DNA from: an uncultured Butyricicoccus sp.
Lineage (GTDB): Bacteria; Bacillota; Clostridia; Oscillospirales; Butyricicoccaceae
Length of the DNA stretch: 64,000 nt
NCBI GenBank assembly: GCA_944376065.1
Contig: CALWBL010000001.1
Span: 124,001 to 188,000 of the forward strand
Direction of reading: 5' to 3'
Shown: one piece after another, positions 2,983 to 26,721 of the stretch
Numbering within the stretch: the stretch's first letter is position 1
How the letters are laid out: every line of letters begins with the position of its first letter
Notes under the pieces: generated by a model
What the model saw: the letters and a program-made list of their open reading frames with translations, nothing else
What the model was told of the DNA's origin: nothing
The model's database searches: none
Position numbers and translations under genes: made by a program

Positions 2983-3153
2983 ATGATAGATTTAATTATT
3001 ATTGCAGTTATTGTAGTTATTTTGGCATGTGCTATAACATATATTATAAAAGCGAAAAAAAGCGGCATTAAATGTATTGGCTGCCCTGCTGCAAAGCAAT
3101 GTTCATCACAGCATAAATGTAGTGGTGGCTGTGGTAGCTGTCATGATGATTGA
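2983..3153 (+). CDS. FeoB-associated Cys-rich membrane protein
   Basis: A 56-residue gene read by hand directly after feoB. It has one N-terminal membrane helix (about residues 3-22, rich in Ile/Val), a short basic stretch KAKKSG, then a cysteine-rich tail with seven cysteines after the helix (CIGCPAAKQC, then C..GCGSC) ending in HDD. This matches the small FeoB-associated Cys-rich family found next to feoB in Firmicutes. Its role is not established; the cysteines and the terminal His/Asp could bind iron at the cytosolic or outer face. Ribosome site aaggaagtg (2965-2973) precedes the ATG. A bidirectional terminator follows at once. Confidence 0.8.
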   Translation: MIDLIIIAVIVVILACAITYIIKAKKSGIKCIGCPAAKQCSSQHKCSGGCGSCHDD

Positions 3154-3163
3154 AATTAAAAAA

Positions 3164-3195
3164 ACAGGTTCTGAAAAATTCAGAACCTGTTTTTT
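3164..3195. terminator. Bidirectional terminator between feo operon and pfk
   Basis: ACAGGTTCTGAA (3164-3175), loop AAA, TTCAGAACCTGT (3179-3190), with A-run before and T-run after. It serves the convergent feo and phosphofructokinase transcripts. Confidence 0.9.
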
Positions 3196-3196
3196 A

Positions 3197-4276
3197 CTAT
3201 TCGTCACCAAATGAAATTCCGATATTTCTGGCAGACTGAATCATGCCACAATCAAGAGGTACTGTTTTGAGTTTGCCTGCAACCTCACTCAAAGGCACTG
3301 GAACAATTTCTCCGTCCTTTAAAGCCACCATATTTCCATAATTTCTATCAGCAATAAGTCGAGCTGCAAAGCTGCCTAAACGGGTTGCAAATGCACGGTC
3401 ATAAGAACATGGACCGCCGCCACGCTGGAAATGTCCAGGAACAACAACACGAATTTCTCTATCTGTTGCTTTCCCAAGTTCGCGAGCAATTTTATAAGAA
3501 ATAGCTGGGTCAGTGAGTTTAGCACGAGATTTTTTAAACTCTTTCTTGCTCATCTTGGCTTCTTCATCAGAAATTGCACCCTCAGCCACTGCGATAATGG
3601 AGAATCTTTTACCCTGCTTATCGCGACTGTCGAGCATTTTAATCAGATTTTCCATTTTATATGGTATTTCGGGCAGAAGAATCATATCTGCACCACCTGC
3701 AACACCTGCATAAAGCGGCAGCCAACCAACCTTGTGTCCCATAATTTCAACAATAAATACACGTCCATGAGAGGTTGCTGTTGTGTGAATACAGTCAATA
3801 ACTTCAGTTGCTAATTCTAAAGCACTATAAAAACCGAAAGTCATTTCAGTTCCCCATAAATCATTATCAATTGTTTTAGGAAGTGTAACAACATTTAAAC
3901 CTTCCTGAGAAAGCAAATGAGCAGTTTTATGAGTACCATTGCCGCCTAAAATTACAAGACAATCCAGTTTCATTTTTTTGTAATTTGATTTCATGGCCTC
4001 TACTTTATCGCCTATTTTTTCATCTGGAATACGCATCTGCTTAAATGGCTGGCGTGAAGTACCTAATATGGTTCCACCTAAAGTCAGAATACCTGAAAAA
4101 TCTGATGGTTTCATCAGTCGATACTCGCCTTGTATAAGACCGCGATAGCCATCTAATATGCCATATATTTCAACTTTATCACCAAATTCAACATAAAGTG
4201 CTTTAGCAACACCACGAATTGCGGCATTCAACCCTTGACAGTCACCACCGCTTGTCAATATACCAACACGCTTCAT
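3197..4276 (-). CDS. pfkA: 6-phosphofructokinase
   Basis: Glycolytic kinase that phosphorylates fructose-6-phosphate at C1. The 359-residue chain starts MKRVGILTSGGDCQGLNAAI, the phosphate-binding loop of PfkA-type enzymes, and carries LGGNGTHKTA, PKTIDND (catalytic Asp) and EIMGHKVGWL. Lysine in PKTIDND together with glycine after the GGN triad is the pattern of the ATP-dependent long subgroup rather than the classical PfkA, where the first motif is GGDGS and the second PGTIDND. The metal-proximal Asp of GGDG is Asn here. I believe this is shared by related clostridial enzymes, but donor preference (ATP or pyrophosphate) cannot be settled from sequence. Monocistronic between two terminators/promoters. 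Confidence 0.88.
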   Translation of the reverse strand: MKRVGILTSGGDCQGLNAAIRGVAKALYVEFGDKVEIYGILDGYRGLIQGEYRLMKPSDFSGILTLGGTILGTSRQPFKQMRIPDEKIGDKVEAMKSNYKKMKLDCLVILGGNGTHKTAHLLSQEGLNVVTLPKTIDNDLWGTEMTFGFYSALELATEVIDCIHTTATSHGRVFIVEIMGHKVGWLPLYAGVAGGADMILLPEIPYKMENLIKMLDSRDKQGKRFSIIAVAEGAISDEEAKMSKKEFKKSRAKLTDPAISYKIARELGKATDREIRVVVPGHFQRGGGPCSYDRAFATRLGSFAARLIADRNYGNMVALKDGEIVPVPLSEVAGKLKTVPLDCGMIQSARNIGISFGDE

Positions 4277-4336
4277 TATGTTTCCTTCCTTTCAATTACA
4301 ATTTTAAACTACAACAGCTTATATAAAGTATAACTA

Positions 4337-4366
4337 ATTATATCACTATTTTGCATAAAAATACAA
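4337..4366 (-). promoter_or_regulatory. Putative pfk promoter
   Basis: Reading the minus strand, TTGTAT (4366-4361), 18-base spacer, TATAAT (4342-4337). It lies about 65 bases before the pfk start codon. The -10 is perfect, the -35 is moderate. Confidence 0.45.
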
Positions 4367-4478
4367 TAACAACACATCGGATTTTCATAAATTTTGCATT
4401 TTCTATACACCTTTTATGAATGATTATAAATTATATGATTGTTTGCTTTTATTGGATTATTTATAAAGTAAAGAACGA

Positions 4479-4507
4479 TTGAAATAACATATAAAGTGTG
4501 ATATACT
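4479..4507 (+). promoter_or_regulatory. Promoter of the HPr gene
   Basis: TTGAAA (4479-4484), 17-base spacer, TATACT (4502-4507). It lies 50 bases before the HPr ATG. Confidence 0.6.
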
Positions 4508-4556
4508 ACTTTTAACCTATTATGGTTATCAAGCATTTTTGAAAGGACGTATTCCA

Positions 4557-4814
4557 ATGAAGACTTTTACTTACACTATTAAAGACGAACTAGGTATCCA
4601 CGCTCGTCCAGCTGGTCTGCTTGTTAAGGCTGCTGGTGCTTTCCAGAGTGACATCACAATCGCTACTGAGGCTAAGAAAGCTAACGCAAAGCGTATGATG
4701 GCTGTTATGGGTCTTGGCGTAAAGTGTGGCACTGAAGTTACTGTTACTGCTGAAGGTGCAGACGAAGATGCTGCAATCGCAGGCATGGAGAAGTTCCTGA
4801 CTGAAAATCTGTAA
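4557..4814 (+). CDS. ptsH: HPr-family phosphocarrier protein with Arg at position 46
   Basis: 85-residue histidine phosphocarrier, normal HPr length. The active site GIHARPAGLL puts the phosphorylatable histidine exactly at residue 15. In Bacillus-type HPr the HPr-kinase target Ser46 lies in NLKSIMGVMSLG; the aligned stretch here is NAKRMMAVMGLG, so position 46 is arginine. The protein can still be phosphorylated by enzyme I but should not be a substrate of HPr kinase. It may serve a PTS or act mainly as a regulator; no ptsI or EII gene is nearby. Start ATG 4557 is preferred over an in-frame TTG at 4539 because that TTG overlaps the ribosome site aaagga. A strong terminator follows, so it is monocistronic. 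Confidence 0.9.
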   Translation: MKTFTYTIKDELGIHARPAGLLVKAAGAFQSDITIATEAKKANAKRMMAVMGLGVKCGTEVTVTAEGADEDAAIAGMEKFLTENL

Positions 4815-4830
4815 GATTTAATATTTTAAA

Positions 4831-4857
4831 GCGACAGCTAAAGCTGTCGCTTTTTTT
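4831..4857 (+). terminator. Terminator of the HPr gene
   Basis: GCGACAGCT (4831-4839), two-base loop, AGCTGTCGC (4842-4850), then seven T. Strong intrinsic terminator. Confidence 0.92.
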
Positions 4858-4879
4858 ATTTCTTTTTTAGACTTAGCTA

Positions 4880-4929
4880 TTGACATACCATATATATTGT
4901 GTATACTAAGTATATACAGTATATATACT
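4880..4929 (+). promoter_or_regulatory. Promoter and palindromic operators of the GntR-ABC operon
   Basis: TTGACA (4880-4885), 16-base spacer, TATACT (4902-4907). Two palindromes overlap or follow the -10: TATACTAAGTATA (4902-4914, 6+1+6) and AGTATATATACT (4918-4929). YtrA-type GntR regulators repress their own operon through palindromes of this sort, so autorepression is likely. Confidence 0.6.
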
Positions 4930-4955
4930 TATCCTATCAGTGAAGGAGGGATATT

Positions 4956-5330
4956 TTGAATATTATCTTGTCTCAAAATAGCAGTAAACCAATTTATGAA
5001 CAAATAGTGGAACAATTTAAAACTCTTATACTATGTGGTAATCTTAATGCTAATGACGCTTTGCCATCCATGCGTTTGCTTGCAAAAGAACTTCGTGTCA
5101 GCTTAATTACTACAAAAAGAGCTTATGAAGAGCTTGAACGCAGCGGATATATATATACTATTGCTGGTAAAGGCAGCTTTGTTTGCTCTGGAAATCATGA
5201 AACTATTTATAATGAACAATTTTCACAGATTACACAACAGCTTTCAGAAGTTGTAAGTCGTGCCAAATTAAATAATGTTTCACTAGAAGATTTGCAAAAC
5301 CTACTTATAAAACTGTATGAACAGGAGTGA
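4956..5330 (+). CDS. GntR-family (YtrA-type) transcriptional regulator
   Basis: 124 residues: an N-terminal winged helix (about 10-75) with the GntR signature KPIYEQIVEQFK, LPSMRLLAKELRVS, TTKRAYEELERSGYIYTIAGKGSFV, followed by only a short tail of about 45 residues. That short effector-free tail is typical of the YtrA subfamily, whose members sit first in operons for ABC exporters and repress them. Start is TTG 4956 behind aaggaggg (4943-4950). The next gene starts six bases beyond the stop, so the two are coupled. Related systems respond to cell-envelope-active antibiotics; the inducer here is unknown. Confidence 0.9.
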   Translation: MNIILSQNSSKPIYEQIVEQFKTLILCGNLNANDALPSMRLLAKELRVSLITTKRAYEELERSGYIYTIAGKGSFVCSGNHETIYNEQFSQITQQLSEVVSRAKLNNVSLEDLQNLLIKLYEQE

Positions 5331-5335
5331 ATGTT

Positions 5336-6178
5336 ATGAACAGCATTTCGGTCAAAAATCTTAATAAACAATTTGATAAATTTAAACTTGATGATATTTC
5401 ATTAAACTTAAAACAAGGCACTGTACTTGGTGTAATAGGTGAAAATGGCGCAGGTAAATCAACTATAATTAAACTAATTTTAGGATTATTACATAAAACA
5501 AGCGGTGAAATTTTAATCTTTGATAAGCCTATAGATAGAAATGAGATAGAAATAAAAACGCATATTGGTTATGTATCTGAACTGACCGCCCTTCCAAATG
5601 AATATAAACCATATTATATTGATAAAGTATTTAAAAATATTTACCCTAAATGGGATTCTAATAAGTTTTTTAAATATCTTGAGCAGTTTTCAATAGACCC
5701 AAAAAAGAAATTTTCTGATTTATCGCGTGGTATGCGTGCAAAATTATCTCTTGCAACTGCTCTTTGTCACGATGCGAAACTTCTAATTCTTGATGAACCA
5801 ACTTCTGGACTTGACCCAGTTGTTCGCAATGAAGTTTTAGATATACTTCGTGAATTTATGCTGGATGAAGAACATTCTATTTTGATTTCTTCTCATATTA
5901 CCAGCGATTTAGAAAGTATAGCAGATGAAATAGCGTTTATACATGATGGAAGGCTGCTTTTTCATCAATCTATAATAGAAATAAATGAAAACTATGGTTT
6001 TATACGCTGCACCCGCGAAGATTTAAAAAACATTGCACAAAATGCTATTTATGCCACACGAGATGACATCTTTGGTGTTGAAGCTCTGATAAATCCTAAA
6101 AAAATATCGTTTAATATTGATATTGCACCTGCCACCCTTGACCAGATAATGTTATTTTTAACTCGTCATACCGCTTGA
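5336..6178 (+). CDS. ABC transporter ATP-binding protein (YtrB/BcrA-like)
   Basis: 280-residue ATPase of an ABC-2-type exporter. Walker A GENGAGKST lies near residue 35, signature LSRGMRAKLSLA near 130, Walker B LLILDEPTSGLDP directly after, and the switch histidine in ILISSHI. A C-terminal extension of about 70 residues follows the nucleotide-binding fold, as in exporters of this class. I choose ATG 5336, spaced 8 bases from the GGAG at 5324-5327; a GTG at 5327 overlaps that site. It sits between its regulator and its membrane subunit and is presumably a dimer with the next gene product. Substrate unknown. Confidence 0.88.
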   Translation: MNSISVKNLNKQFDKFKLDDISLNLKQGTVLGVIGENGAGKSTIIKLILGLLHKTSGEILIFDKPIDRNEIEIKTHIGYVSELTALPNEYKPYYIDKVFKNIYPKWDSNKFFKYLEQFSIDPKKKFSDLSRGMRAKLSLATALCHDAKLLILDEPTSGLDPVVRNEVLDILREFMLDEEHSILISSHITSDLESIADEIAFIHDGRLLFHQSIIEINENYGFIRCTREDLKNIAQNAIYATRDDIFGVEALINPKKISFNIDIAPATLDQIMLFLTRHTA

Positions 6179-6196
6179 TAAAGGAGGAGTATTTTT

Positions 6197-6841
6197 ATGT
6201 TAGCTGCATGTAGAAGTGATTTTTATTTAATGAAATCCACAATTCGAGCTTACTTGATAGCACAACTTTTTATGGTTGCTCTTGCCATTGCCACTAATTC
6301 ACAGTATTTATATTTATTTTATCCAACTTTTACCTCTGTATTTCTTACAATGAACGCTAGTAGTTATAACTCATCATCTGGTTTTTCATCACTCTTACTT
6401 AGCTCTCCTATTTCCAGAGCAAATGTTGTTGTTGGCAGGTATTTATTTTTATTATTATTTTGTATTCCTACTATCATATTATCATGCTTTATCATGTTTA
6501 TTTTAGGTGATGCAACAGCATACGAAATGATAAGACTTATGCTAATATGCTGCACCATTATCTTGACTTTAATGTCGATTTTTACACCCATCACATATAT
6601 ATTAAAACCTAATTATATTTCCGTTGCATTTCTTTGTATTTGTTTTATTCCATCAATCATTGTTATATTACTAAAACCAGTTATTAAACGTTCTAATTTT
6701 GATATTCAATATATGATATCAACTATTGAAAATATTTATAATTCATTACCTACATTAACGATTATTCTGTTTATAAGTTTAGTGCTTCTTGCTATTTCTA
6801 TAACAGTTTCTATTGCTGTTTTTAGAAGAAAAGAGTTTTAA
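6197..6841 (+). CDS. ABC-2 transporter permease
   Basis: 214 residues with six predicted membrane helices, in the ABC-2 membrane family with the early motif NASSYNSSSGFSSLLLSSPISR after the second helix, a cytoplasmic segment typical of this permease group (PF13346-like). Directly after its ATPase with 18 bases between, ribosome site aaggagga. It forms the membrane part of the GntR-controlled exporter, likely for self-protection against peptide or envelope stress; no biosynthetic gene is near. The sequence itself gives no substrate. Confidence 0.8.
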   Translation: MLAACRSDFYLMKSTIRAYLIAQLFMVALAIATNSQYLYLFYPTFTSVFLTMNASSYNSSSGFSSLLLSSPISRANVVVGRYLFLLLFCIPTIILSCFIMFILGDATAYEMIRLMLICCTIILTLMSIFTPITYILKPNYISVAFLCICFIPSIIVILLKPVIKRSNFDIQYMISTIENIYNSLPTLTIILFISLVLLAISITVSIAVFRRKEF

Positions 6842-6921
6842 ATAACTCATATATGAAATATAAAAAACATAGGTTAATATAATAAGCATATATTACAGTA
6901 CTTGCAAAACCCACAGCAAAG

Positions 6922-6950
6922 AAATCCCGACTAACGTCGGGATTTTTTGC
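6922..6950 (+). terminator. Terminator of the GntR-ABC operon
   Basis: AAATCCCGAC (6922-6931), loop, GTCGGGATTT (6936-6945), then T-run. The hairpin overlaps the stop codon of the convergent DUF3169 gene; its T-rich side on the minus strand is weak. Confidence 0.85.
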
Positions 6951-7674
6951 CATGTTCAAGTTTATATGAAGGTATTAAATAACTAAGCATTTGAACCAAC
7001 CAAAGCATACCTACCATTAAAAAAATAAATGGACTTAAATAATGCACAGTACAAATAATAATCATAATTACAAACAATATAGGATAAATCACACTCATGG
7101 TTTTATAAGATTTATAGCACGCCTCACCTATTATTTGCCTTTCAGCCTCGTCGCAACTTGAATACCATTCTTTTTGAAATTTATTATCCAGTACATTGCC
7201 TTTTTTTTCAGGGAATATCTTTTTTGTTTCCTCAACCGTTTTATATTGAATTATAGTAATCCAAACCATTTCTATAATAAACAGCAATAAATCTACTAAA
7301 ATATGAACTGATAAAACTCTAAAACTATATGTCGCTGAAAATCCAAAGCATATAAATGACCATGGCATCATCACACTAGGAATTGACAATGCCATACAAA
7401 GCATCTTATTCGTTTTTTCAAATTGGTGTTCATCTAAGTCAGCATTTGCTTTTATAATATTCTTTGCTTTTTTTATAAGTATACTTCCAATAATAAGCGG
7501 GATTACTCCAATCAGCATAAGTATTGTGCTGTTTTTAATAATAGTATCTGATAAAGAATTAAAAATTGTTGACAAATCTTTGATATTTGACCGCACAAAA
7601 AGACTTGATATACCACCTAATACTCCACAGACTATCATAGTAAATGCAAATTTAAGACCTGTTTTCTTTTTCAT
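6931..7674 (-). CDS. DUF3169 family membrane protein
   Basis: 247 residues with about six membrane helices (near 10-28, 50-66, 90-112, 120-142, 195-212 and 218-235) and a soluble loop around 145-190. It matches the DUF3169 family, small multi-pass proteins typically encoded next to an XRE-type regulator in Firmicutes, often near bacteriocin or ABC loci. No catalytic motif is visible and its function is unknown. It is the second gene of a two-gene operon, starting two bases after the regulator's stop, so expression follows the regulator. The pair may be a membrane protein and its dedicated repressor. Confidence 0.7.
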   Translation of the reverse strand: MKKKTGLKFAFTMIVCGVLGGISSLFVRSNIKDLSTIFNSLSDTIIKNSTILMLIGVIPLIIGSILIKKAKNIIKANADLDEHQFEKTNKMLCMALSIPSVMMPWSFICFGFSATYSFRVLSVHILVDLLLFIIEMVWITIIQYKTVEETKKIFPEKKGNVLDNKFQKEWYSSCDEAERQIIGEACYKSYKTMSVIYPILFVIMIIICTVHYLSPFIFLMVGMLWLVQMLSYLIPSYKLEHGKKSRR

Positions 7675-7676
7675 GT

Positions 7677-7883
7677 CTACTCCTCCTCTGTCAAATAAAA
7701 TACCTGTTCAACTGATTTTTCAAACACCTTTGCAATTTTGAGTGCAAGTGTTATAGATGGGTTATAATCCCCTCTTTCAATAAGGCTTATTGTTTGTCTT
7801 GATGCACCGACTAGCGAACCAAGCTCTTGCTGATTTAAGTTTTTTGCTGCACGAAATTCTTTTACACGATTTTCAAGCGGCAT
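7677..7883 (-). CDS. XRE-family helix-turn-helix regulator
   Basis: 68-residue single-domain Cro/CI-type protein: RVKEFRAAKNLNQQELGSLV, then the recognition helix ASRQTISLIERGDYNPSITLALKIAKVF. It belongs to the short transcriptional-regulator group with consensus 'R..I...E.G.Y.PS..LA..IA' found beside small membrane proteins. Start ATG 7883 follows aggaggt (7891-7897); the alternative GTG at 7892 overlaps that site. It very likely binds the repeated TTGTCA elements just upstream and represses its own operon. Its target outside the operon, if any, is unknown. Confidence 0.88.
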   Translation of the reverse strand: MPLENRVKEFRAAKNLNQQELGSLVGASRQTISLIERGDYNPSITLALKIAKVFEKSVEQVFYLTEEE

Positions 7884-7911
7884 ATAAAACACCTCCTTTT
7901 GACATGTATGA

Positions 7912-7996
7912 TTGTCATAATGACAATTTTATTTGTCATTATTATGATATCACTGACAACTATATTTGTCAACACTTTTGACAACTTTTTTTGTCA
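7912..7996 (-). promoter_or_regulatory. XRE operon promoter with seven TTGTCA/TGACAA sites
   Basis: Hexamers TTGTCA or their complement TGACAA occur at 7912, 7921, 7933, 7954, 7966, 7979 and 7991. The minus-strand promoter TTGACA (7972-7967), 17-base spacer, TATCAT (7949-7944) lies within the array, so its -35 overlaps one site. An inverted pair TTGTCA-TAA-TGACAA stands at 7912-7926. A regulator bound here would block RNA polymerase. Confidence 0.65.
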
Positions 7997-8013
7997 TTTC
8001 TATTTTTGCACAA

Positions 8014-8045
8014 AAAAACAGACGCACATAAGTACGTCTGTTTTT
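8014..8045 (-). terminator. Terminator of the CBS-domain gene
   Basis: On the minus strand AAAAACAGACG pairs with CGTCTGTTTTT (arms 8045-8035 and 8024-8014, loop between), followed by a T-run at about 8012. It ends the CBS gene transcript just downstream of its stop. Confidence 0.85.
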
Positions 8046-8048
8046 AAA

Positions 8049-8516
8049 TCAACCCCAAATTTCATTTAACTCATTTCGGGTTACTATAGCTTTTTCTTTC
8101 ATTTGCATTTTTAGAGTCTTTTTCTTTATTTCTGAAATGCAATAATTCATAATACGTTGACGGGTTACAATACCTATAAAACAATCTCTGTCATCAATTA
8201 CAGGGACAAAGTTCTGATGAAGTGCTGTATCAAGTAAATCGATTATTTGAGCCTCTGCCCTAACCGGTCTATTCTGTACTCTGCGCTCCATTTGTTCCAT
8301 ATACATAATATCACGCTGATTCCATATTTCTGGTTTAGATAGAGCTCTTAAAAAATCGCCTTCTGTAACTGTTCCTATGTATCTTCCTTCTCTTGAAATT
8401 AGTGGTATTGCAGTATATCCCGTTTCCTGCATACTTTCTAAACCCTCAGCTATTGTTTGGTCGTGATATAGATATGACACCTCATGTTTTGGTGTCAAAA
8501 AAAACATAATATTCAT
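8049..8516 (-). CDS. CBS-domain protein (CbpA/YkuL-like)
   Basis: 155 residues made of a CBS pair: one unit around 12-60 (DQTIAEGLESMQETGYTAIPLI, GTVTEGDFLRAL) and one around 80-130 (EAQIIDLLDTALHQNFVPVID, GIVTRQRIMNYC), with a basic C-terminal helix. CBS pairs bind adenine nucleotides; YkuL-type proteins in Firmicutes sense cyclic di-AMP or AMP, but no ligand can be assigned here. The start MNIMFFLTPKHEV may be either of two ATGs three codons apart; the ribosome site is weak. Monocistronic, with its own terminator. Confidence 0.75.
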   Translation of the reverse strand: MNIMFFLTPKHEVSYLYHDQTIAEGLESMQETGYTAIPLISREGRYIGTVTEGDFLRALSKPEIWNQRDIMYMEQMERRVQNRPVRAEAQIIDLLDTALHQNFVPVIDDRDCFIGIVTRQRIMNYCISEIKKKTLKMQMKEKAIVTRNELNEIWG

Positions 8517-8651
8517 AATATTCTGCTTCTTTCTGCTACATTTATACTGGATAAATTGTTTTATCTGTAAGCATATTGTACCAAAATGTAAGCAGTCTTA
8601 CAACATATTAAACGCATTTTTAACAAATTGTACATTATTTTCACAAAATAA

Positions 8652-10394
8652 TCAAATCTGTTTCAAAATTTTCTCTATAAGTGAAACTCGCTGGAAAGGT
8701 GTTATTAAATACCAGCCATGAGTAAAGTTACGCATACGGTTAGCAATATCTACTGATAATTTAACTGCAAGTTCTTCTGCCTTATCTCTGTCAAGACCAT
8801 CATACATATTAACAATATCCTCTGGAATATCAATACCTGCCATTTCTTGGCTCATAAACAAAGCATTTCTATGGCTTATAATAGGAATTATACCTCCTAG
8901 AATTTTAGCATCTAGTGTATCATAAGCCTTTTTGAGGTTTTCAAATGCCTTTTCAGTAAATACTGGCTGGGTTAAAAATGCGCATATTCCTGCCTCTTGT
9001 TTGCGTACAGCCTTTCTAAGCTCGGCATCAAAATTCCTGGCATTTACATTTAATGCACCATATACAGAAAACGGAGCACAAAATCCGTCTGCTGAAAGCT
9101 GGCGAATGTAATCAGCAAGCACAACCGAGTTAAATGAAAATACCGCCTTAACTTCATCTTTTGCAGCCGATGGTACAGGGTCGCCAGTTACTACAAGTAC
9201 ATTTTGCACCTGCTCGACGGATAAACCTAAAAGCAGGGCTTTGGTAGCGTTGATATTTCTATCACGACATGTCATATGTGGAATTGAGTCTAAATCAAGC
9301 TCTCTATGCAGCTTAGCAGCAAGAAGTGAAGAATCGACGCGAACCCTAGCCACTGGACAGTCAGCAATAGTTACCGCATCAACACCAATTTCTTTTAGTT
9401 TTCTTGCACCATTCATAAACTTTTCAATATTAGAATCTGCTGGAGGATCTAATTCCACTGCAATAATACGTTTACCCTTTTGCATTTTTTCTGCAAGACG
9501 ATTTTTCACTTGTGTGAAAATAGGCTTTTTATTGTCATCTAAATTTTCTTGTTTTATGGTTTTAGAAATGATTTTACCTTCAAGTTTACGACTAACTTGT
9601 TTAATATGTTCTGGAGTTGTGCCACAACAACCACCAACAATATTAACACCTGTTTTTATAAGCTCTGAGCATCTTTCAGCGAAATAATTAGGGCTAATGT
9701 CAAAAACTGTTCTGCCATCAATAACAGTTGGATAACCAGCATTTGGCATAACAGAAAATGATTTTTTTGCATTTTGAATATCAACCTGAAGTGTTTTTGC
9801 TGTCTGCAATAGATGCAATGGACCAGATACACAGTTTAATCCCACTGCATCTAAATTTATATCTTCACAAACACGCTTTATTAAATTATGTGCTGCTATT
9901 CCATGACGAGTAAAGCCGTCTGGAGTTACTGCAAAAGAAGCAATTATATAAGCATCACTGCACTTTTTTTTAATATACGCTGTAAAATCAGCCAAATCTT
10001 TATCATCTGCAAGGGTTTCAAATAAAAAGTTTTTTGCGCCTAAGCTTAGAAATTCATCTAAAACCGCATAAACTTCCTCTTTTTGCTCATCAATAGGACA
10101 TAAATCTGCGAAAATTTTACAGTTTTTATCCCCTATCGCTTTAATAGCATTATCCCAAGCGGATTTTATAATTTTTCTAATTTGAATTATATCGCACTCA
10201 AGAGCTTTTGGAGTGGCTGCAAATGTATTAGTTTTAATTGCATTTGCACCTGCATTTATATACTCACTATGTATTTTTATTATACGCTCAGGGTGATTTA
10301 TATTTGCCCATTCACATTTTGCAGTATCATCTGGATAACAAGTGCTGTAATATGTACCCATTGCACCGTCGAAAAGCAATATATTATCTTTCAT
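8652..10394 (-). CDS. Bifunctional homocysteine S-methyltransferase / methylenetetrahydrofolate reductase
   Basis: 580-residue fusion like Bacillus YitJ. Residues 1 to about 285 form a homocysteine methyltransferase barrel with the zinc cysteines in GLNCVSG and VGGCCGTTPEH. Residues from about 300 to the end form a MetF-type reductase with VELDPPADS, TCRDRNINATKALLLGL, VLVVTGDP and AFLTQPVF. It would supply methyl-THF from methylene-THF and may transfer methyl to homocysteine. ATG 10394 is chosen because it matches the domain start; a TTG 27 bases upstream overlaps metH. It lies 19 bases after metH in the same operon, so reductase and B12 enzyme are co-expressed. Confidence 0.9.
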   Translation of the reverse strand: MKDNILLFDGAMGTYYSTCYPDDTAKCEWANINHPERIIKIHSEYINAGANAIKTNTFAATPKALECDIIQIRKIIKSAWDNAIKAIGDKNCKIFADLCPIDEQKEEVYAVLDEFLSLGAKNFLFETLADDKDLADFTAYIKKKCSDAYIIASFAVTPDGFTRHGIAAHNLIKRVCEDINLDAVGLNCVSGPLHLLQTAKTLQVDIQNAKKSFSVMPNAGYPTVIDGRTVFDISPNYFAERCSELIKTGVNIVGGCCGTTPEHIKQVSRKLEGKIISKTIKQENLDDNKKPIFTQVKNRLAEKMQKGKRIIAVELDPPADSNIEKFMNGARKLKEIGVDAVTIADCPVARVRVDSSLLAAKLHRELDLDSIPHMTCRDRNINATKALLLGLSVEQVQNVLVVTGDPVPSAAKDEVKAVFSFNSVVLADYIRQLSADGFCAPFSVYGALNVNARNFDAELRKAVRKQEAGICAFLTQPVFTEKAFENLKKAYDTLDAKILGGIIPIISHRNALFMSQEMAGIDIPEDIVNMYDGLDRDKAEELAVKLSVDIANRMRNFTHGWYLITPFQRVSLIEKILKQI

Positions 10395-10413
10395 TTTATC
10401 ATCACTCTTTCTT

Positions 10414-12792
10414 TTAACCAAGGATATCTCGTGCTATATCAACAGATTCCTTTGCATCACGCGCATAGAAATCAGCACCTATTTTCTTTGCATATTCTGG
10501 TGTTAAAACTGCACCACCGACCCAAACTTTGCAGTCATGACCAGCGTTTCTAAGTGCTTTAATAGTTTCTTCCATGCTGCCAAGTGTTGTTGTCATAAGA
10601 GCAGACAGACCTATAAGTTTTACATTTTGCTCTATTGCAGTATTTACCACAGTTTCGATTGGTACATCTCTACCTAAATCAAGCACTTGATAGCCATAGT
10701 TTTCCAGTATAGTTTTAACTATATTTTTGCCAATATCATGAATATCGCCTTTAACAGTTGCAACTATGATTTTACCCTTGGATACAGATTTAGCACCCTT
10801 TGCAGCTATTGATTTTTTAATAATTTCAAATGCCTCTTGTGCAGCGCCAGCGGAATTTATAAGCTGAGGGAGAAATATTTCACCCTTTTCAAATCTATCG
10901 CCGACTAGGTCAAGTGCAGGTATTAAAAGAGTGTTTACAATATCCAATTCGGTCATACTGTTTTCTAAAAGTGACTGTGTAATAGCCTTGCAATCCTCTT
11001 TTAAACCCTTTTCAACTGCACGAATAAGTGGTGGCTGTTCTTCTGTACTTTCATTAGTTTTCTGCACTGCCTGTACATTTGCTGCAACAGTTTGTTGTGG
11101 CATTTTCATACAAGCCTCAATATATTCTTGTGAATTTTTATCTCTGTTATAAATAACATTAAATACTCTAATAGCATTCATAACTGGTAAGCTATTAGGA
11201 TTTATAATAGGCATATCAAGTCCATAAGACATTGCAAGTGTTAAAAATCCGGTTGTTACAAGCTCTCTGCATGGCAGACCAAAAGAAATATTTGAAACAC
11301 CTAAAACACAATGCAAACCAAGATTATCTCTAACCATTTGCATAGCTTTTAAAGTTTCGACCGCTTTGTCTTGCTCTGCAGAAACCGTAAGGGTTAAGCA
11401 GTCAATAAACACATCTTCTTTCGGAATACCATATTCCATAGCCCTTTTCATAATACGCTCAGCAATTACAAAACGCTCCTCGGCTGTTGGTGGCAAACCG
11501 TTGCTATCCATAGTCAAACCTACAACTGCTGCACCATATTTCTTAGCTATTGGAAGAATTTTTTCAAGAACTTCTTCTTCACCATTTACAGAGTTGACAA
11601 TGGCCTTACCGTTTACAACTCTTAAACCTGCCTCTAAAACCTCTGGCTTTGTAGAGTCAATTTGAAGTGGCAAATCTGTTACACCCTGAATAGCCTTTAC
11701 CACTTTGACCATCATTTGTGCCTCGTCTATACCTGGTAAGCCTACATTTACATCTAAAATATGAGCGCCTGCATCTGCTTGCTCCACAGCTTGATGTAAA
11801 ATATAGTCCATATCACCTTCGCCAAGCGCCTGCTGGAAGCGCTTTTTGCCCGTTGGGTTAATACGCTCACCAATGACACGTACACCATCAATTCTTACAA
11901 CATTTGTTGGAGAACACACTTCTGAGTGACGTATTATTTCTCTTTTTGCTGGTGTTTCTCCTTGCGTACGCTTTACAATCTCAGAAATATATTCTGGAGT
12001 TGTGCCACAGCAACCGCCTAAAATGCTTACACCCATTGAAAGATATTCTTCCATAAGCTCGGCAAACTCCACCGCATCAATGTCATATTCGCTTGTAGAA
12101 GGGTCTGGAAGTCCAGCATTTGCTTTAACTATAATAGGCAAAACAGTAGCATTGCATAAACGCTCTACAATCGGCATAAGCTCCTTTGGACCGAGTGAAC
12201 AGTTTACACCCATAGCATCAACGCCCAAACCCTCTAAAGTCATAGCCATTGATTCAACCGAGCAACCGGTGAATGTTCTTCCATTTTGCTCAAATGTCAT
12301 TGTTACATAAATAGGAAGTTTTGTGTTTTCCTTTGCTGCAAGTACACCCGCCTTAACCTCATATAAATCGGTCATAGTTTCAAATATAACAAGGTCTGCC
12401 CCTGCACTCTCTCCAGCGACTAACATTTCTTTAAAGATTTCATATGCATTTTCAAAAGATAATGTTCCATAAGGCTCTAAAAGCTGACCTATTGGACCAA
12501 TATCAAGAGCTACTTTGCACTTTGTGCCATTAGCTGCATCTTTGGCACATTTAACCGCTGCTTTTACAACTTTTTCAACACTTTCTCCACTTTTTTGAAG
12601 TTTATAGCTATTAGCACCAAAAGTATTAGCATAAATGATATCCGAACCTGCATCAATATAAGCCTTGTGTATTGCTTTTATTTTTTCTGGTTCTGTTAAG
12701 CATAAAACTTCTGGGCTATGTCCTGCTGCCAAACCGTTTCTTTGCAGCATAGTACCCATTGCACCATCTAAATAAATAATTTTATCTCCCAC
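10414..12792 (-). CDS. metH: Cobalamin-dependent methionine synthase without reactivation domain
   Basis: 792 residues. Homocysteine-binding domain at about 1-300 (YLDGAMGTML, GVNCS, GGCCGTTPEY), pterin-binding domain at about 315-590 (RVIGERINPTGKKRF, DAGAHILDVNVGLPG), cap and B12-binding domains at about 630-790 with the cobalt-ligand motif DIHDIGKNI. The C-terminal AdoMet reactivation domain of E. coli MetH (1,227 residues) is missing and is encoded by the gene just upstream. I place the start at GTG 12792, behind ggcgggg; it overlaps the upstream gene by 11 bases, suggesting coupling. It transfers methyl from methyl-THF to homocysteine. Confidence 0.93.
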   Translation of the reverse strand: MGDKIIYLDGAMGTMLQRNGLAAGHSPEVLCLTEPEKIKAIHKAYIDAGSDIIYANTFGANSYKLQKSGESVEKVVKAAVKCAKDAANGTKCKVALDIGPIGQLLEPYGTLSFENAYEIFKEMLVAGESAGADLVIFETMTDLYEVKAGVLAAKENTKLPIYVTMTFEQNGRTFTGCSVESMAMTLEGLGVDAMGVNCSLGPKELMPIVERLCNATVLPIIVKANAGLPDPSTSEYDIDAVEFAELMEEYLSMGVSILGGCCGTTPEYISEIVKRTQGETPAKREIIRHSEVCSPTNVVRIDGVRVIGERINPTGKKRFQQALGEGDMDYILHQAVEQADAGAHILDVNVGLPGIDEAQMMVKVVKAIQGVTDLPLQIDSTKPEVLEAGLRVVNGKAIVNSVNGEEEVLEKILPIAKKYGAAVVGLTMDSNGLPPTAEERFVIAERIMKRAMEYGIPKEDVFIDCLTLTVSAEQDKAVETLKAMQMVRDNLGLHCVLGVSNISFGLPCRELVTTGFLTLAMSYGLDMPIINPNSLPVMNAIRVFNVIYNRDKNSQEYIEACMKMPQQTVAANVQAVQKTNESTEEQPPLIRAVEKGLKEDCKAITQSLLENSMTELDIVNTLLIPALDLVGDRFEKGEIFLPQLINSAGAAQEAFEIIKKSIAAKGAKSVSKGKIIVATVKGDIHDIGKNIVKTILENYGYQVLDLGRDVPIETVVNTAIEQNVKLIGLSALMTTTLGSMEETIKALRNAGHDCKVWVGGAVLTPEYAKKIGADFYARDAKESVDIARDILG

Positions 12793-13459
12793 AGGTTTTC
12801 CCCGCCTTTCTAAATCTACAATTTTCAAACATAGAGCAATAGGCACAGCCTCTAAAGCGTTTAGTTTGCTTTGTTTCGGCAATGCCAATAATCGCTGTTA
12901 CAGACTTTCTTGGTGTTAAAATACATGAATCTGTAAGTGTAAGTCCAATTTGCCTTTGTGTATCTAACAAACCTACCATCTCTGATTGAAATGATATTGG
13001 CATATCGCCATAACCTGGACTAAATCTATCAGTAAACCACTTAATATTTAATTTTTCTTTTATCTCTTTCTCTACTTTATCACAAACGGCCTCTATCGCT
13101 GATGAACCACAGCAATCCAAAATAATTGCATTTGACATATTGCGAATTTCTGCCATACGAATAACTCTTTCTATATCTGCACCTAAAGTAGCCGCCATAA
13201 GCACACATTTTTTACAGTCTTTAAGCATAACGGCTATGTCGTTGCCGATTAAATGTACACCTGGCTCCTTTAAAACTGGAGTTTCATGTTGCCAATCTAT
13301 ATCAAACACTTTATACGTCCATCTCGGTTTGACGGTATCTAAAGTTATTTTTATACATTCTTCAAGCTGATTTTGTATATTTTGTGGAATTTCACTGCCA
13401 CGCCATCCAAGATATTGCAAAACCTCTGCTTTTGAAAACTCCGAAAGCTCTATTTCCAT
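12782..13459 (-). CDS. Methionine synthase reactivation (AdoMet-binding) subunit
   Basis: 225-residue stand-alone version of the MetH activation domain, which reductively methylates inactive cob(II)alamin using AdoMet. The family fold is seen in LGWRGSEIPQNI, the central segment KEKLNIKWFTDRFSPGYGDM and LTDSCILTPRKSVTAIIG; the R.SPGYGD stretch is the AdoMet-binding signature (RPAPGYPA in E. coli). The C-terminus has a CAYCSMFENCRF cysteine group, absent from E. coli MetH, that might hold metal or a cluster for electron delivery. It is first in the operon with metH and the MTHFR fusion, so the whole B12 methionine branch is together. Confidence 0.87.
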   Translation of the reverse strand: MEIELSEFSKAEVLQYLGWRGSEIPQNIQNQLEECIKITLDTVKPRWTYKVFDIDWQHETPVLKEPGVHLIGNDIAVMLKDCKKCVLMAATLGADIERVIRMAEIRNMSNAIILDCCGSSAIEAVCDKVEKEIKEKLNIKWFTDRFSPGYGDMPISFQSEMVGLLDTQRQIGLTLTDSCILTPRKSVTAIIGIAETKQTKRFRGCAYCSMFENCRFRKAGKTCGR

Positions 13460-23307: not shown

Positions 23308-23331
23308 AAAAACCGCCAAGGCGGTTTTTTT
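23306..23331. terminator. Bidirectional terminator
   Basis: A-run, CCGCC (23313-23317), two-base loop, GGCGG (23320-23324), T-run. Lies between the convergent activase operon and FkbM gene; overlaps the FkbM stop. Confidence 0.9.
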
Positions 23332-24394
23332 ATTTTGCATACAAATTTACATCCCACGCTGGAACATACGGGTGATGTCTAATATAAAACTTATATTCTG
23401 GACAAATTTCATATATTTGCAGAATAAGAGCAAATAAATCTTCGTTTCTGTGATAAGCCGCAATATTGAGCTTGGGTTTCCACTTTTGAAGTGTTTGCAT
23501 AGCTCCAAAAATCGCCTCTTTTTCTGAGCCTTCAACGTCCATTTTAAGAAATGTACATTCTTTTCCAGCTAAAATGGAATCAACTGCCCTCATATTAGTT
23601 TCTATTCCTTTTTTAGATATTCGTGAATTTCTGCCTGCTCTTTCCGCAAATGTTAAAATACAATCACTATCCCATGCACCTGCATTCTCTAACTTTATAT
23701 CTCCTGAAAGATTTTCTTCAACATATTTTGTGAGTTTTTTAAAATTTCGTTTATCTGGCTCTAATGCTGTTATGCTTGCAAATTTTCCATGTGTATAGCT
23801 TAAAATCTCCCTTATTGTATCGCCATTATATGCACCCAAATCTACAAAATGCTCATTTAGTGATGGTTTTAAAATATTTGTAAAAATCTCGCTTTTATTA
23901 TCCTCACCTAATCGTAAATGCTCTATTTTGCCAGTTAGTTTAAAACATATCATCTCATCAAGCACCTGTTTGGAACGCTCATCTGCTAAAAGCTCAAAAA
24001 CTTTATCAAATTCATTTTTATATTCATTTACAAACTCTAAGTCAAAAATACCTTCACCTGCCACTGGTACATCTGGTGCTACTACATCAAATCTTGTATC
24101 AAGTTCATACATCTTCTCAAGCACTTCTGCTCTTTGACTTGCAAAAGATATAACAATTACTATGTCTTTACCAAAAATATCTATTGTCTGCGCAAGCGTT
24201 CTAACGGGAAATCCTGCAAAATCATGACCACGCACAAATTCATCACTTGCAAATACGCCAGAGGCTTTTATTCCACACCCCTCAAATACTCTTAAAATCT
24301 TGTCTGCGCCATCGCCCATACCATAAAGCACAATTGGTCTTTTTTCGTTTTTTAATCTATCCCATACCGTTTCGGTTATAGTTTTCCATTTCAT
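23330..24394 (-). CDS. FkbM-family SAM-dependent methyltransferase
   Basis: 354 residues in two parts. Residues 1 to about 125 form a Rossmann-like region (RPIVLYGMGDGADKILRVFE, GKDIVIVISFASQ) seen ahead of some sugar-modifying enzymes. Residues about 180-345 are the FkbM methyltransferase with SAM motif I FVDLGAYNGDTIREIL, acidic ribose loop ITALEPDKRNFKKL and motif FLKMDVEGSEKEAI. FkbM enzymes O-methylate hydroxyls of sugars, polyketides or peptides. It stands divergent from the LTSY-repeat gene; its promoter is covered by an inverted repeat. A role in methylating the product of that cassette is inference from position. Confidence 0.85.
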   Translation of the reverse strand: MKWKTITETVWDRLKNEKRPIVLYGMGDGADKILRVFEGCGIKASGVFASDEFVRGHDFAGFPVRTLAQTIDIFGKDIVIVISFASQRAEVLEKMYELDTRFDVVAPDVPVAGEGIFDLEFVNEYKNEFDKVFELLADERSKQVLDEMICFKLTGKIEHLRLGEDNKSEIFTNILKPSLNEHFVDLGAYNGDTIREILSYTHGKFASITALEPDKRNFKKLTKYVEENLSGDIKLENAGAWDSDCILTFAERAGRNSRISKKGIETNMRAVDSILAGKECTFLKMDVEGSEKEAIFGAMQTLQKWKPKLNIAAYHRNEDLFALILQIYEICPEYKFYIRHHPYVPAWDVNLYAK

Positions 24395-24429
24395 AAAAAT
24401 ACATTCCTTAAAGCCTAAATTTTTAATTT

Positions 24430-24466
24430 ATTATAAACTTTTTAGACTGGTATGTAAAGTTTATAA
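24430..24466 (-). promoter_or_regulatory. FkbM promoter overlapped by an 11-bp inverted repeat
   Basis: Minus-strand promoter TTTACA (24458-24453), 17-base spacer, TATAAT (24435-24430). The perfect inverted repeat TTATAAACTTT (24431-24441) and AAAGTTTATAA (24456-24466) covers the -10 with one arm and the -35 with the other. It looks like an operator for a dimeric repressor; a cruciform or chance in AT-rich DNA are alternatives. Confidence 0.55.
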
Positions 24467-24503
24467 TTTACCATATTTTCGACTCCAAATCAATTTGACA
24501 GCA

Positions 24504-24532
24504 TTGCGATTTAACATAAATTACTGTATAAT
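24504..24532 (+). promoter_or_regulatory. Promoter of the LTSY-repeat gene
   Basis: TTGCGA (24504-24509), 17-base spacer, TATAAT (24527-24532), with the start codon 34 bases downstream. Confidence 0.55.
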
Positions 24533-24566
24533 ATTTAGTATAAATGATGACAGGAGAGGTTGCAAA

Positions 24567-25094
24567 ATGCCAAAAAATAAAAAAAATAAAATTGTAGAAC
24601 TTGACAAAGAGCATCTGCGTGACCTTAATGGTGTCACCATGGATTTAGAAAGTTATGAAAAACATACAAAACCTCATAAACCGAAAAAACAAGATGTTGC
24701 TCTTGTAAAAAAAACTCAATCTGAGCCAAAACACAATAGCCAGCTAAATACGCAACCAGTTGGCGTTTTTGCATGTAACCCTGTTCATGTGGGTTGGTAT
24801 AAAACTGATGAAACAAAACAACAAATCACCTATCCTATTATGGCTGGTGCTATTAAGCCTGAACAAATAATAAATGAGCTTAATACTTATTATACAGGCT
24901 CCGGTTCCTATTTTTCATCCAGTTCATTTTTAACATCATATCTCACTTCTTATTTGACATCTTACTTAACATCCTATATCACTTCATACACTGCATCTTA
25001 TAGTGCATCTTTTATTTCTTCATATTTTTTGCTTTCATCTGGTATAAGCAGTGGTGATGTATTTGCTCACGGATATGGATTGGAGCTGATTTAA
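24567..25094 (+). CDS. Uncharacterised protein with tandem LTSY-type repeats
   Basis: 175 residues; not a family I recognise. Start ATG 24567 behind aggagagg (24552-24559). No signal peptide or membrane helix at the N-terminus. Residues 1-55 are charged and lysine-rich (MPKNKKNKIVELDKEHLRDL). Residues 65-115 look like a small folded part with one cysteine (VFACNPVHVGWY). Then SYFSSSSF leads into eight tetrapeptides (residues 122-153): LTSY four times, ITSY, TASY, SASF, ISSY. The tail is Ser/Gly-rich and ends GYGLELI. One base separates it from a glycosyltransferase-like gene and it faces an FkbM methyltransferase. It may be a modified structural protein, spore-surface protein or modified-peptide precursor. 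Confidence 0.75.
   Translation: MPKNKKNKIVELDKEHLRDLNGVTMDLESYEKHTKPHKPKKQDVALVKKTQSEPKHNSQLNTQPVGVFACNPVHVGWYKTDETKQQITYPIMAGAIKPEQIINELNTYYTGSGSYFSSSSFLTSYLTSYLTSYLTSYITSYTASYSASFISSYFLLSSGISSGDVFAHGYGLELI
24930..25025 (+). repeat. Eight tandem 12-bp units coding LTSY-like tetrapeptides
   Basis: Units start every 12 bases from 24930. Leucine is written tta, ctc, ttg, tta; threonine aca, act, aca, aca, act; serine tca, tct, tct, tcc, tca; tyrosine tat, tat, tac, tat, tac over the first units. The protein repeat is kept while the codons differ. Confidence 0.9.
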
Positions 25095-25095
25095 A

Positions 25096-25944
25096 ATGCA
25101 AGCCTTTCATTCTTGTTGGACTGCACCGTTTAAAGCAAGAAACCCAAATACCGAGTTTACCATTCCACCTTTTGAAATTTTAACAACTATACTGTCTGCG
25201 TTATTTTGGCAAAAAAATAATGGCAGCATTTCTATGATATGTGATAAAACTGCATATGATTTTTATAAAGCAAACAATTTAACTGCTTTATGGAACGGTG
25301 GAATTAAAGTTATTCTTGATGATATACCAAAAGAAATAAACCCCCATATTTTTTGGGCTGCTGGAAAAATCTTCGCTCTTAAAAACCACCAAAAACCTTG
25401 TGTTATGTTAGATACTGATTTTATCGTTTGGGAAAGGCTCTCTTTTGATAATATTAAAATTGCAGCTATACATTCAGAAGAACTTGTACCAGATATATAT
25501 CCACCACAAGAAAGACTATTTGCTGATTTTGATTTTTCCGGTCTTGATTGGACCGTGCCAGCTGCAAATACTGCACTTTCTTTTTTTGGTGATGAAGATT
25601 TTACAAAATATTATACAGATACTGCTATTAACTTTATGCTTTCATGCAAAAATGTTAATGACCCACTTATTTATATGGTTTTCGCTGAGCAACGTTTACT
25701 CTCGATGCTTGCAAAAAAACAAAATTTAACCCTTGATTATTTTTCTAATTTGCCAGAGCTTTTCACTTCTGGACAAACCTGTTTTACACACACTTGGGGA
25801 TTTAAACAGCAAATGCAGCAAAACCCCGAAATTATGGCTGCGTTTTGCATACGATGTATAAACAGAATATCACGAGAATTTTCAGATTGGAAATCTGTAT
25901 TATATAATATACCTTCACTTTCGCATTATTTTGATATTTGCTGA
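25096..25944 (+). CDS. DUF6734-like putative glycosyltransferase
   Basis: 282 residues. The stretch PCVMLDTDFIVW near residue 100 has the DxD form used by nucleotide-sugar transferases, preceded by a helix-rich N-terminal half and followed by a variable C-terminal half. I assign it to the DUF6734 group, annotated as uncharacterised and resembling GT-A enzymes; this rests on pattern memory and not on alignment. ATG 25096 lies one base after the stop of the LTSY-repeat gene, with GGAG inside that gene's end, so the two are translationally coupled. The obvious hypothesis is that it glycosylates Ser/Thr/Tyr of that protein. Donor and acceptor unknown. Confidence 0.6.
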   Translation: MQAFHSCWTAPFKARNPNTEFTIPPFEILTTILSALFWQKNNGSISMICDKTAYDFYKANNLTALWNGGIKVILDDIPKEINPHIFWAAGKIFALKNHQKPCVMLDTDFIVWERLSFDNIKIAAIHSEELVPDIYPPQERLFADFDFSGLDWTVPAANTALSFFGDEDFTKYYTDTAINFMLSCKNVNDPLIYMVFAEQRLLSMLAKKQNLTLDYFSNLPELFTSGQTCFTHTWGFKQQMQQNPEIMAAFCIRCINRISREFSDWKSVLYNIPSLSHYFDIC

Positions 25945-26046: not shown

Positions 26047-26721
26047 ATGCTTTTTGATTTAATTATGGGCGGTGATATACGCTCAATTATTATTGGTTTG
26101 GTGCTTGGTTTGCCTGCTGTTGTAATCTGCTTAACATTTCATGAGGCTGCTCATGGATTTACCGCTTATCTATTAGGAGATAAAACAGCTAAAGCATCAG
26201 GCAGACTTACTCTTGACCCTATGGCTCATATAGACCCTATTGGTTTTCTATGCATGATGCTTGTTGGATTCGGTTGGGCAAGACCTGTTCCTGTTAATAT
26301 TTCACAGTTTAAAAATAAACGTCTTGGTATGGGACTTGTTGCGGCGGCTGGACCTGTTTCAAATTTAATTTTAGGATTTATAGCTTATGTTATATCCATT
26401 ACACTGCAAATAAAATTATACCCTATTTCTGGGTTTACCGAGGTTTTAGTGCTATTTTTCACTTATATAGCCTCTATGTCAGTAGGATTAGGCGTTTTTA
26501 ATCTTATTCCAATTCACCCACTTGATGGTTCCCGCATACTTGATGCAATTTTGCCTTTTAAAATTCAAGTTAGATACCAAAACTTTATGAGCAGGTATGG
26601 TTCTGTTGTTTTGCTTGTTGTTATTGCTTTCTTATGGGTCGGTGGTCTTTCCTACCTTGTAATAGGCTCAAGACAAATTGTGCTTAATCTTGCACTAAAA
26701 TTTGTGGGATTATTCTTATAA
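26047..26721 (+). CDS. Site-2 protease family membrane metalloprotease (M50)
   Basis: 224 residues with about five membrane helices. Zinc motif HEAAH (HExxH) lies in LTFHEAAHGFTAYLLGD near residue 35 and the third ligand in NLIPIHPLDGSRIL near 155. This short family without PDZ domain is a regular neighbour of scpA-scpB in Firmicutes. It cuts substrates within the membrane; the target is unknown. Ribosome site acggagg. Its stop abuts the scpA ATG (0 bases), so it is co-translated with the condensin genes. Confidence 0.9.
   Translation: MLFDLIMGGDIRSIIIGLVLGLPAVVICLTFHEAAHGFTAYLLGDKTAKASGRLTLDPMAHIDPIGFLCMMLVGFGWARPVPVNISQFKNKRLGMGLVAAAGPVSNLILGFIAYVISITLQIKLYPISGFTEVLVLFFTYIASMSVGLGVFNLIPIHPLDGSRILDAILPFKIQVRYQNFMSRYGSVVLLVVIAFLWVGGLSYLVIGSRQIVLNLALKFVGLFL

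Follow-up and report, generated by a model that had tools for sequence, protein, structure and literature searches.

We propose, with a probability of roughly one half (0.52), that the tail protein and the DUF6734-family glycosyltransferase (GT) encoded side by side at this locus form a dedicated pair of acceptor and enzyme that acts in the cytosol during growth. The GT would bind the C-terminal tag of its partner, G-Y-G-[LI]-x-[LI]-I, and transfer a sugar onto putative target residues, Ser/Thr and perhaps Tyr, in the low-complexity region that precedes the tag. The N-terminal half, which is exchanged between lineages, might set the cellular task of each acceptor, and an FkbM methyltransferase could subsequently O-methylate the sugar in Butyricicoccaceae and in a second family of the order. 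A broader claim is more tentative, and we hold it at somewhat below even odds: in at least six families of one phylum, proteins that are not otherwise related, and that mostly contain low-complexity regions, would share a short portable tag, xGYG[LI]x[LI]I, through which a dedicated GT-A enzyme is recruited to them.

The window, i.e. the whole stretch of 64,000 nucleotides that was analysed, stems from a genome of 1.8 Mb and contains the following features:

23330-24394, minus strand: gene of the FkbM O-methyltransferase with an N-terminal Rossmann-like domain, divergent from the repeat gene (PF05050 and TIGR01444)
23816-23848, minus strand: SAM-binding motif FVDLGAYNGDT of the FkbM domain (alignment A3)
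24504-24532, plus strand: sigma-A-type promoter, TTGCGA, 17-bp spacer, TATAAT (by sequence; same arrangement 5' of nearly all Butyricicoccaceae orthologues)
24552-24559, plus strand: ribosome binding site of the repeat gene, AGGAGAGG (read off the sequence)
24567-25094, plus strand: repeat/tail protein, 175 aa, presumed acceptor (ORF from ATG 24567; no Pfam/NCBIfam family)
24591-24665, plus strand: conserved N-terminal module, residues 9-33 of the repeat protein (alignment A1; pLDDT of the AF2 model)
24762-24851, plus strand: second conserved module, residues 66-95 of the repeat protein (GVFxxxPVHxGWY...YPIMAGA)
24897-25061, plus strand: Ser/Thr/Tyr low-complexity region with eight tetrapeptides (composition kept, sequence variable among relatives)
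25071-25091, plus strand: C-terminal tag GYGLELI of the repeat protein (positions conserved in 61 relatives; pattern search)
25096-25944, plus strand: DUF6734-family GT-A glycosyltransferase, 282 aa (PF20508 match, AF2 model, Foldseek)
25411-25419, plus strand: DxD motif D106-T-D108 of the GT (invariant in 30 relatives)
26047-26721: gene of an M50-type membrane protease, next after the GT gene, in a block with scpA and scpB

An earlier note on this DNA had described the FkbM, repeat protein and DUF6734 genes as a cassette, and all three were found at or close to where it had placed them and are conserved among relatives. Orthologues that share these ends are found throughout Butyricicoccaceae, and the trio is not a chance arrangement. 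Several details of that description were borne out as well: the repeat protein has 175 residues and no Pfam or NCBIfam match above cut-off, the ORF contains a single cysteine (C70), eight tetrapeptides and the GYGLELI end, the stop codon of the repeat gene (25092-25094) is followed by one base and then by the ATG of the GT gene at 25096, and the FkbM gene faces the repeat gene in divergent orientation with matches to PF05050 and TIGR01444. The statement that no protease is visible does not hold, as the M50-type gene lies directly downstream of the GT gene. This gene is probably a housekeeping gene, because it is located in an scpA/scpB block and keeps scpA/scpB as neighbours in genus g10 as well, although the repeat/GT pair is encoded at another place there.

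The GT matched PF20508 (DUF6734) with 43.1 bits at a cut-off of 27, establishing its family membership, and its AF2 model is of high confidence (pLDDT 94.5, pTM 0.91). A Foldseek search with the model returned GT-A enzymes such as glycogenin and B3GalT5 as nearest structures (E about 1e-5); at TM-scores of only 0.4-0.5, the fold does not reveal which donor and acceptor the enzyme uses. The Rossmann-like core of the model, the top structural matches and the invariance of D106 and D108 (the DTD motif) in 30 GT relatives assign the enzyme to the GT-A fold and confirm the DxD-like site that the earlier note had seen. No PDB relative was identified by sequence profile, the phages and plasmids searched with the GT gave no match, and our literature search found no paper on DUF6734 or the tag.

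The repeat protein of this locus carries its tetrapeptides from about residue 121 onwards (four times LTSY, then ITSY, TASY, SASF and ISSY) and ends with HGYGLELI. An alignment of 17 relatives resolved two short N-terminal modules, a variable linker, the low-complexity region and a near-invariant GGYGLELI end. The first module, residues 9-33, reads ILxLDPEHxREIDGVVFDxDSYxKH in the relatives, with I9, G22, V23, D26, S29 and H33 being invariant; in the second, P72, G76, W77, Y78, P90 and M92 do not vary. The AF2 model of the protein is mostly disordered (pLDDT 53), exceeding 80 only within the N-terminal module (residues 11-30), and this low-confidence model was left out of the fold search. No signal-peptide-like or membrane segment is present in the protein (maximal 19-residue mean hydrophobicity figure 1.08). 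An IMG/VR search with the repeat protein gave two short low-complexity matches, which we judged spurious.

The earlier note had named the protein after its LTSY repeat, but it is the C-terminal tag that is conserved; the invariance of the tag, and its recurrence with the same GT on unrelated proteins of other families, go beyond that note. In the 17 relatives the Ser/Thr/Gly/aromatic composition of the low-complexity region stays the same and its sequence changes. Relatives have GSGSGS, SSGSFR, SSYASSY and similar units in place of LTSY; g10 proteins contain SSGSFR/TSGSYRL-like repeats and end with GGYG[LI][ND]LI. The peptide repeat is nevertheless maintained by selection, judged from codon usage, since repeat units encoding the same residue differ in their codon in 41 of 67 comparisons, which rules out recent DNA slippage as its origin. 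A YEYEYEY-like motif recurs inside the low-complexity region of tag proteins from g10, f168 and f25 (L019, L117, L143, L146, L147, L160-L163, L203, L205), and one g10 tag protein (L118) contains an NQNNNNNNNN run there.

Orthologues of the repeat protein are present in genomes of the same genus and the same family (Butyricicoccus, Agathobaculum, Intestinibacillus). Among 54 well-covered Butyricicoccaceae genomes, the repeat protein was found in 37, the GT in 37 and the FkbM protein in 36; the remaining 17 have none of the three genes at the thresholds used. The sole mismatch, G078, is devoid of FkbM, and there the repeat/GT pair is broken across contig ends, so a gap in the assembly could account for the absence. 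The carriers of the trio form one side of a single branch in a SpoIVA tree (the rows of G009 and G082 are in the wrong reading frame; both are non-carriers and leave the carrier branch unaffected). By this phylogenetic pattern the family profile records one gain or loss, that is strict retention rather than repeated independent association. As a single evolutionary event, the 37/54 co-occurrence does not count as independent support, and independence has to come from other families. The check proposed earlier, whether homologues of the repeat protein neighbour DUF6734 and FkbM genes, showed that they do not mostly lack these neighbours, and the cassette claim thus withstood it.

Beyond Butyricicoccaceae, five further GTDB families of the phylum (f168, f199, f25, f31 and f86) contain relatives of the GT. 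PF20508 lacks the sensitivity needed for this subclade, with matches in 3 of 398 genomes against 23 of 393 for the A2 GT profile; with the A2 profile 22 further carriers were identified among 393 genomes of the class, and the Pfam model added one more in the phylum, G746. Since the genome collections were sampled partially, this range of the tag/GT system is a lower bound. Rows of the GT tree cluster by family, with no sign of recent exchange. The GT gene of f86 overlaps at its end with an IS30-like transposase gene and is possibly truncated (248 aa; L135, 4462-6175).

The upstream partners in these five families mostly contain Ser/Gly/Tyr/Phe-rich stretches and then always the tag. Taking all lineages together, the gene adjacency expected of a dedicated acceptor/GT pair was observed in 63 of 68 distinct loci, where the tag gene lies immediately upstream of the GT gene with a gap of mostly -4 to +4 bases. 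The other five loci, from f168 genomes of genus g503, have a GT gene without an adjacent tag gene, and in all five g503 genomes a genome-wide pattern search located the tag elsewhere, at the end (GYGI[DN]LI) of a Ser/Gly/Tyr-rich ORF on another contig. In g503 the tag gene precedes a U32-peptidase-like gene and the GT gene follows a YrrM-like O-methyltransferase gene (L171, L174-L176, L178, L214-L218); these two genes resemble genes of tRNA wobble-uridine modification, which would fit the splitting of a single ancestral block.

The search used a back-translated tag pattern, with the reversed pattern as chance control (3 matches in 52 genomes), and G116 was left out of the counts. All 33 GT carriers searched contain the tag, 29 by the strict pattern and four as variants (GFGLELI, GYGLELV, GYGIHLV, GYGLELIDAR), and the strict pattern detected it in 0 of 17 Butyricicoccaceae without the GT. 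Two strict matches (G003:C114 and G1081:C2) do not end a tail-type ORF and are compatible with the chance rate. The consensus at the extreme end of the GT-neighbour proteins is G-[YF]-G-[LI]-x-[LI]-[IV], its positions being conserved in 61 relatives, of which 21 lie outside Butyricicoccaceae and encode it with mixed codons. The coding sequences of the tag indicate conservation at the protein level, as several codons are used at every tag position outside Butyricicoccaceae and genomes in which the tag gene and the GT gene are unlinked retain it. Being the sole constant feature of the GT partners, the tag is the presumed recognition element of the enzyme. The proteins of f31 and f86 have almost no low-complexity region (SSGVGGYGLNII, SGSGFGGYGLELIDAR) and few hydroxyls, so that the tag, not the repeat, is the constant; the target residues could therefore sit close to the tag. 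The earlier proposal that the repeat is the GT substrate thus stands in part: the very tight pairing of the two genes makes a substrate role of the repeat protein the leading reading, but the repeat sequence itself is not conserved.

The pairing appears confined to this part of the family. A search of IMG/VR with the GT profile yielded 15 relatives with 25-29% identity on viral contigs, several of which measure 150-434 kb (L280-L294), and in the ten of these loci that were read no tag protein was found beside the relative. Pairing with a tag protein thus characterises this DUF6734 subclade and was not observed beside the remote relatives examined. One remote DUF6734 gene lies among genes that resemble a contractile-injection (eCIS-like) cluster (L134 in G688, about 3000-13000), where no tag protein was found either.

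The methyltransferase is tied less closely to the pair. The FkbM gene matched PF05050 (42.7 bits) and TIGR01444 (60 bits) above cut-offs, its protein is related by sequence to 2py6, and its SAM motif DLGAYNGDT is conserved, F183, D185, L186, G187, A188, Y189, G191, D192 and T193 being invariant in alignment A3. In g10 the gene is unlinked from the repeat/GT pair, having the M50/scpA/scpB block as its neighbour in three of the five loci read, and is kept in 8 of 9 genomes despite the unlinking. A close FkbM relative, unlinked to the pair, is present in four of four f25 genomes tested, all of them GT carriers; none was detected at E 1e-10 in the carriers of f168, f199, f31 and f86. As it occurs with the pair only in Butyricicoccaceae and f25, the putative FkbM methylation is by its distribution an accessory of two of the six lineages, not a part of the core pair. 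Its membership in the cassette thus holds for the Butyricicoccaceae clade, where it is conserved, but does not extend to f168, f199, f31 and f86. In one relative only, the FkbM gene is separated from the conserved genes upstream by an additional 357-aa ORF with a signal-peptide-like start and an apparent SLH domain (L037, 2339-3412).

Among the alternatives to a dedicated acceptor/GT pair, a sorting or assembly tag fares best, although we regard it as unlikely. GYGxxLI would then be the signal for a machinery of export, anchoring or polymerisation, and the GT would merely decorate the protein or make a separate glycan. The extreme C-terminal position of the tag and its portability between proteins resemble C-terminal sorting signals, and Ser/Gly/Tyr low-complexity regions suit surface or matrix proteins. 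However, no third gene recurs beside the tag/GT pair in the families read, leaving the GT as the only constant partner, and no export gene is visible at the loci. The loci likewise contain no export or processing parts that a secreted peptide, one of the possibilities raised earlier, would need, and this possibility is disfavoured.

We consider it improbable that the acceptor Tyr/Ser residues start a longer polysaccharide, as in a glycogenin split into two genes. Glycogenin (GT8), which is among the nearest folds, shares the GT-A fold, the DxD motif and the (here presumed) protein acceptor with the system described here, and many of the acceptors are Tyr-rich, but the similarity is at the level of the GT-A fold only (TM-score 0.4-0.5, about 12% identity) and in glycogenin acceptor and enzyme are one protein. 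Moreover, no polymerase gene is linked to the pair, and the acceptors of f199 and f31 have little or no Tyr in their low-complexity part.

Just as improbable is a spore-surface glycoprotein pair similar to CgeA/CgeB or BclA3/SgtA. In Bacillus subtilis CgeA/CgeB, a GT is encoded beside a small low-complexity protein and expression occurs in the spore phase. SgtA/BclA3 provides a true precedent for a GT gene beside its repeat acceptor, and spoIVA is present in 51 of 54 Butyricicoccaceae genomes, but it is found equally in genomes with and without the pair. A TTG... hexamer, a 17-bp spacer and TATAAT precede nearly every Butyricicoccaceae orthologue, and sigma-E/K-like -10 boxes occur in few. Instead of the late-sporulation sigma promoter expected by analogy with CgeA/CgeB, the upstream regions of these orthologues thus carry a promoter that is sigma-A-like by sequence, pointing to vegetative transcription of the repeat gene. 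This conserved promoter disfavours the spore-surface role that the earlier note had considered, and no sequence link to CgeA/CgeB was found.

Very improbable is a RiPP-like precursor with an N-terminal leader and a low-complexity core that is modified and then exported. The protein is small, adjoins modifying enzymes, and its N-terminal module is duplicated in several Agathobaculum, but a leader should be shared, and it is the C-terminus that is constant while the N-terminal parts differ between families. The N-terminal half reads IVFxQxELDxAL...LCDNxFxLPL in f168, MKLLLMFFNERCYTY... in f199 and CLWLNGKKVxDLxQLK... in f25, and the partners comprise about 60 residues in all in f31 and 350 in f86; profile comparison detected no similarity among the N-terminal types except between f1 and its genus g10 and, weakly, between f168 and f86 (E 0.001, probability 20%). 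Furthermore, no dedicated exporter or protease recurs at the loci, the M50 gene being housekeeping by context. That the tail is conserved only as DNA holding the ribosome binding site of the following GT gene is refuted as its full explanation and hardly deserves credence: tag DNA does double as GT ribosome binding site in Butyricicoccaceae, nearly every tail outside g10 reading TTGGAGCTG with GGAG just before the GT start, but codons differ in g10 and the other families, and the g503 tail gene keeps its tag although unlinked from the GT.

The dedicated acceptor/GT pair has its closest proven precedents, by analogy, in SgtA/BclA3 and in the O-glycosylation of low-complexity regions in lactobacilli. 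In Clostridioides difficile, SgtA, whose gene adjoins bclA3, attaches GlcNAc to Thr residues in the BclA3 repeats, so that there, too, a GT gene lies beside the gene of a repeat-rich acceptor and the sugar is placed on repeat hydroxyls (PMC7157674). That acceptor has a collagen repeat and belongs to the spore exosporium, the GT gene lies upstream of it, and the parts of the source consulted do not mention a shared C-terminal tag. Gtf1/Gtf2 of Lactobacillus plantarum and GtfA/GtfB of the SecA2 serine-rich repeat proteins catalyse cytosolic O-glycosylation of Ser/Thr-rich low-complexity regions in Gram-positive bacteria (PMC5796085), as is proposed for the pair described here. They differ in being a GT pair with DUF1975 whose acceptors are often secreted adhesins, and a GYGxxLI tag is not mentioned in the sections of that source consulted. 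The signal peptide and surface anchor typical of SecA2 serine-rich repeat proteins are missing from our repeat protein, which contains no hydrophobic segment. An f199 acceptor (GSGSGS) weakly matches serglycin-type Ser-Gly repeats (PF04360, E 0.00096, below cut-off), a likeness in composition only to an unrelated protein. The constant pairing of the tag with one type of GT in many gut Clostridia suggests that the protein to be glycosylated is chosen by a label at its C-terminus, which would be an undescribed mode of selection.

DUF6734, a family of unknown function, is now tied to a defined class of partner proteins, and its function is directly testable in harmless gut butyrate producers that can be cultured. 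It is noteworthy that Ser/Gly/Tyr-rich low-complexity proteins are fixed in a whole clade of gut bacteria, as comparable eukaryotic sequences form condensates; the final product may be a low-complexity glycoprotein with an adhesive, condensate-forming or structural role. Should the tag be what the enzyme recognises, it would constitute a short portable label for targeted cytosolic O-glycosylation in bacteria, which would be useful in engineering.
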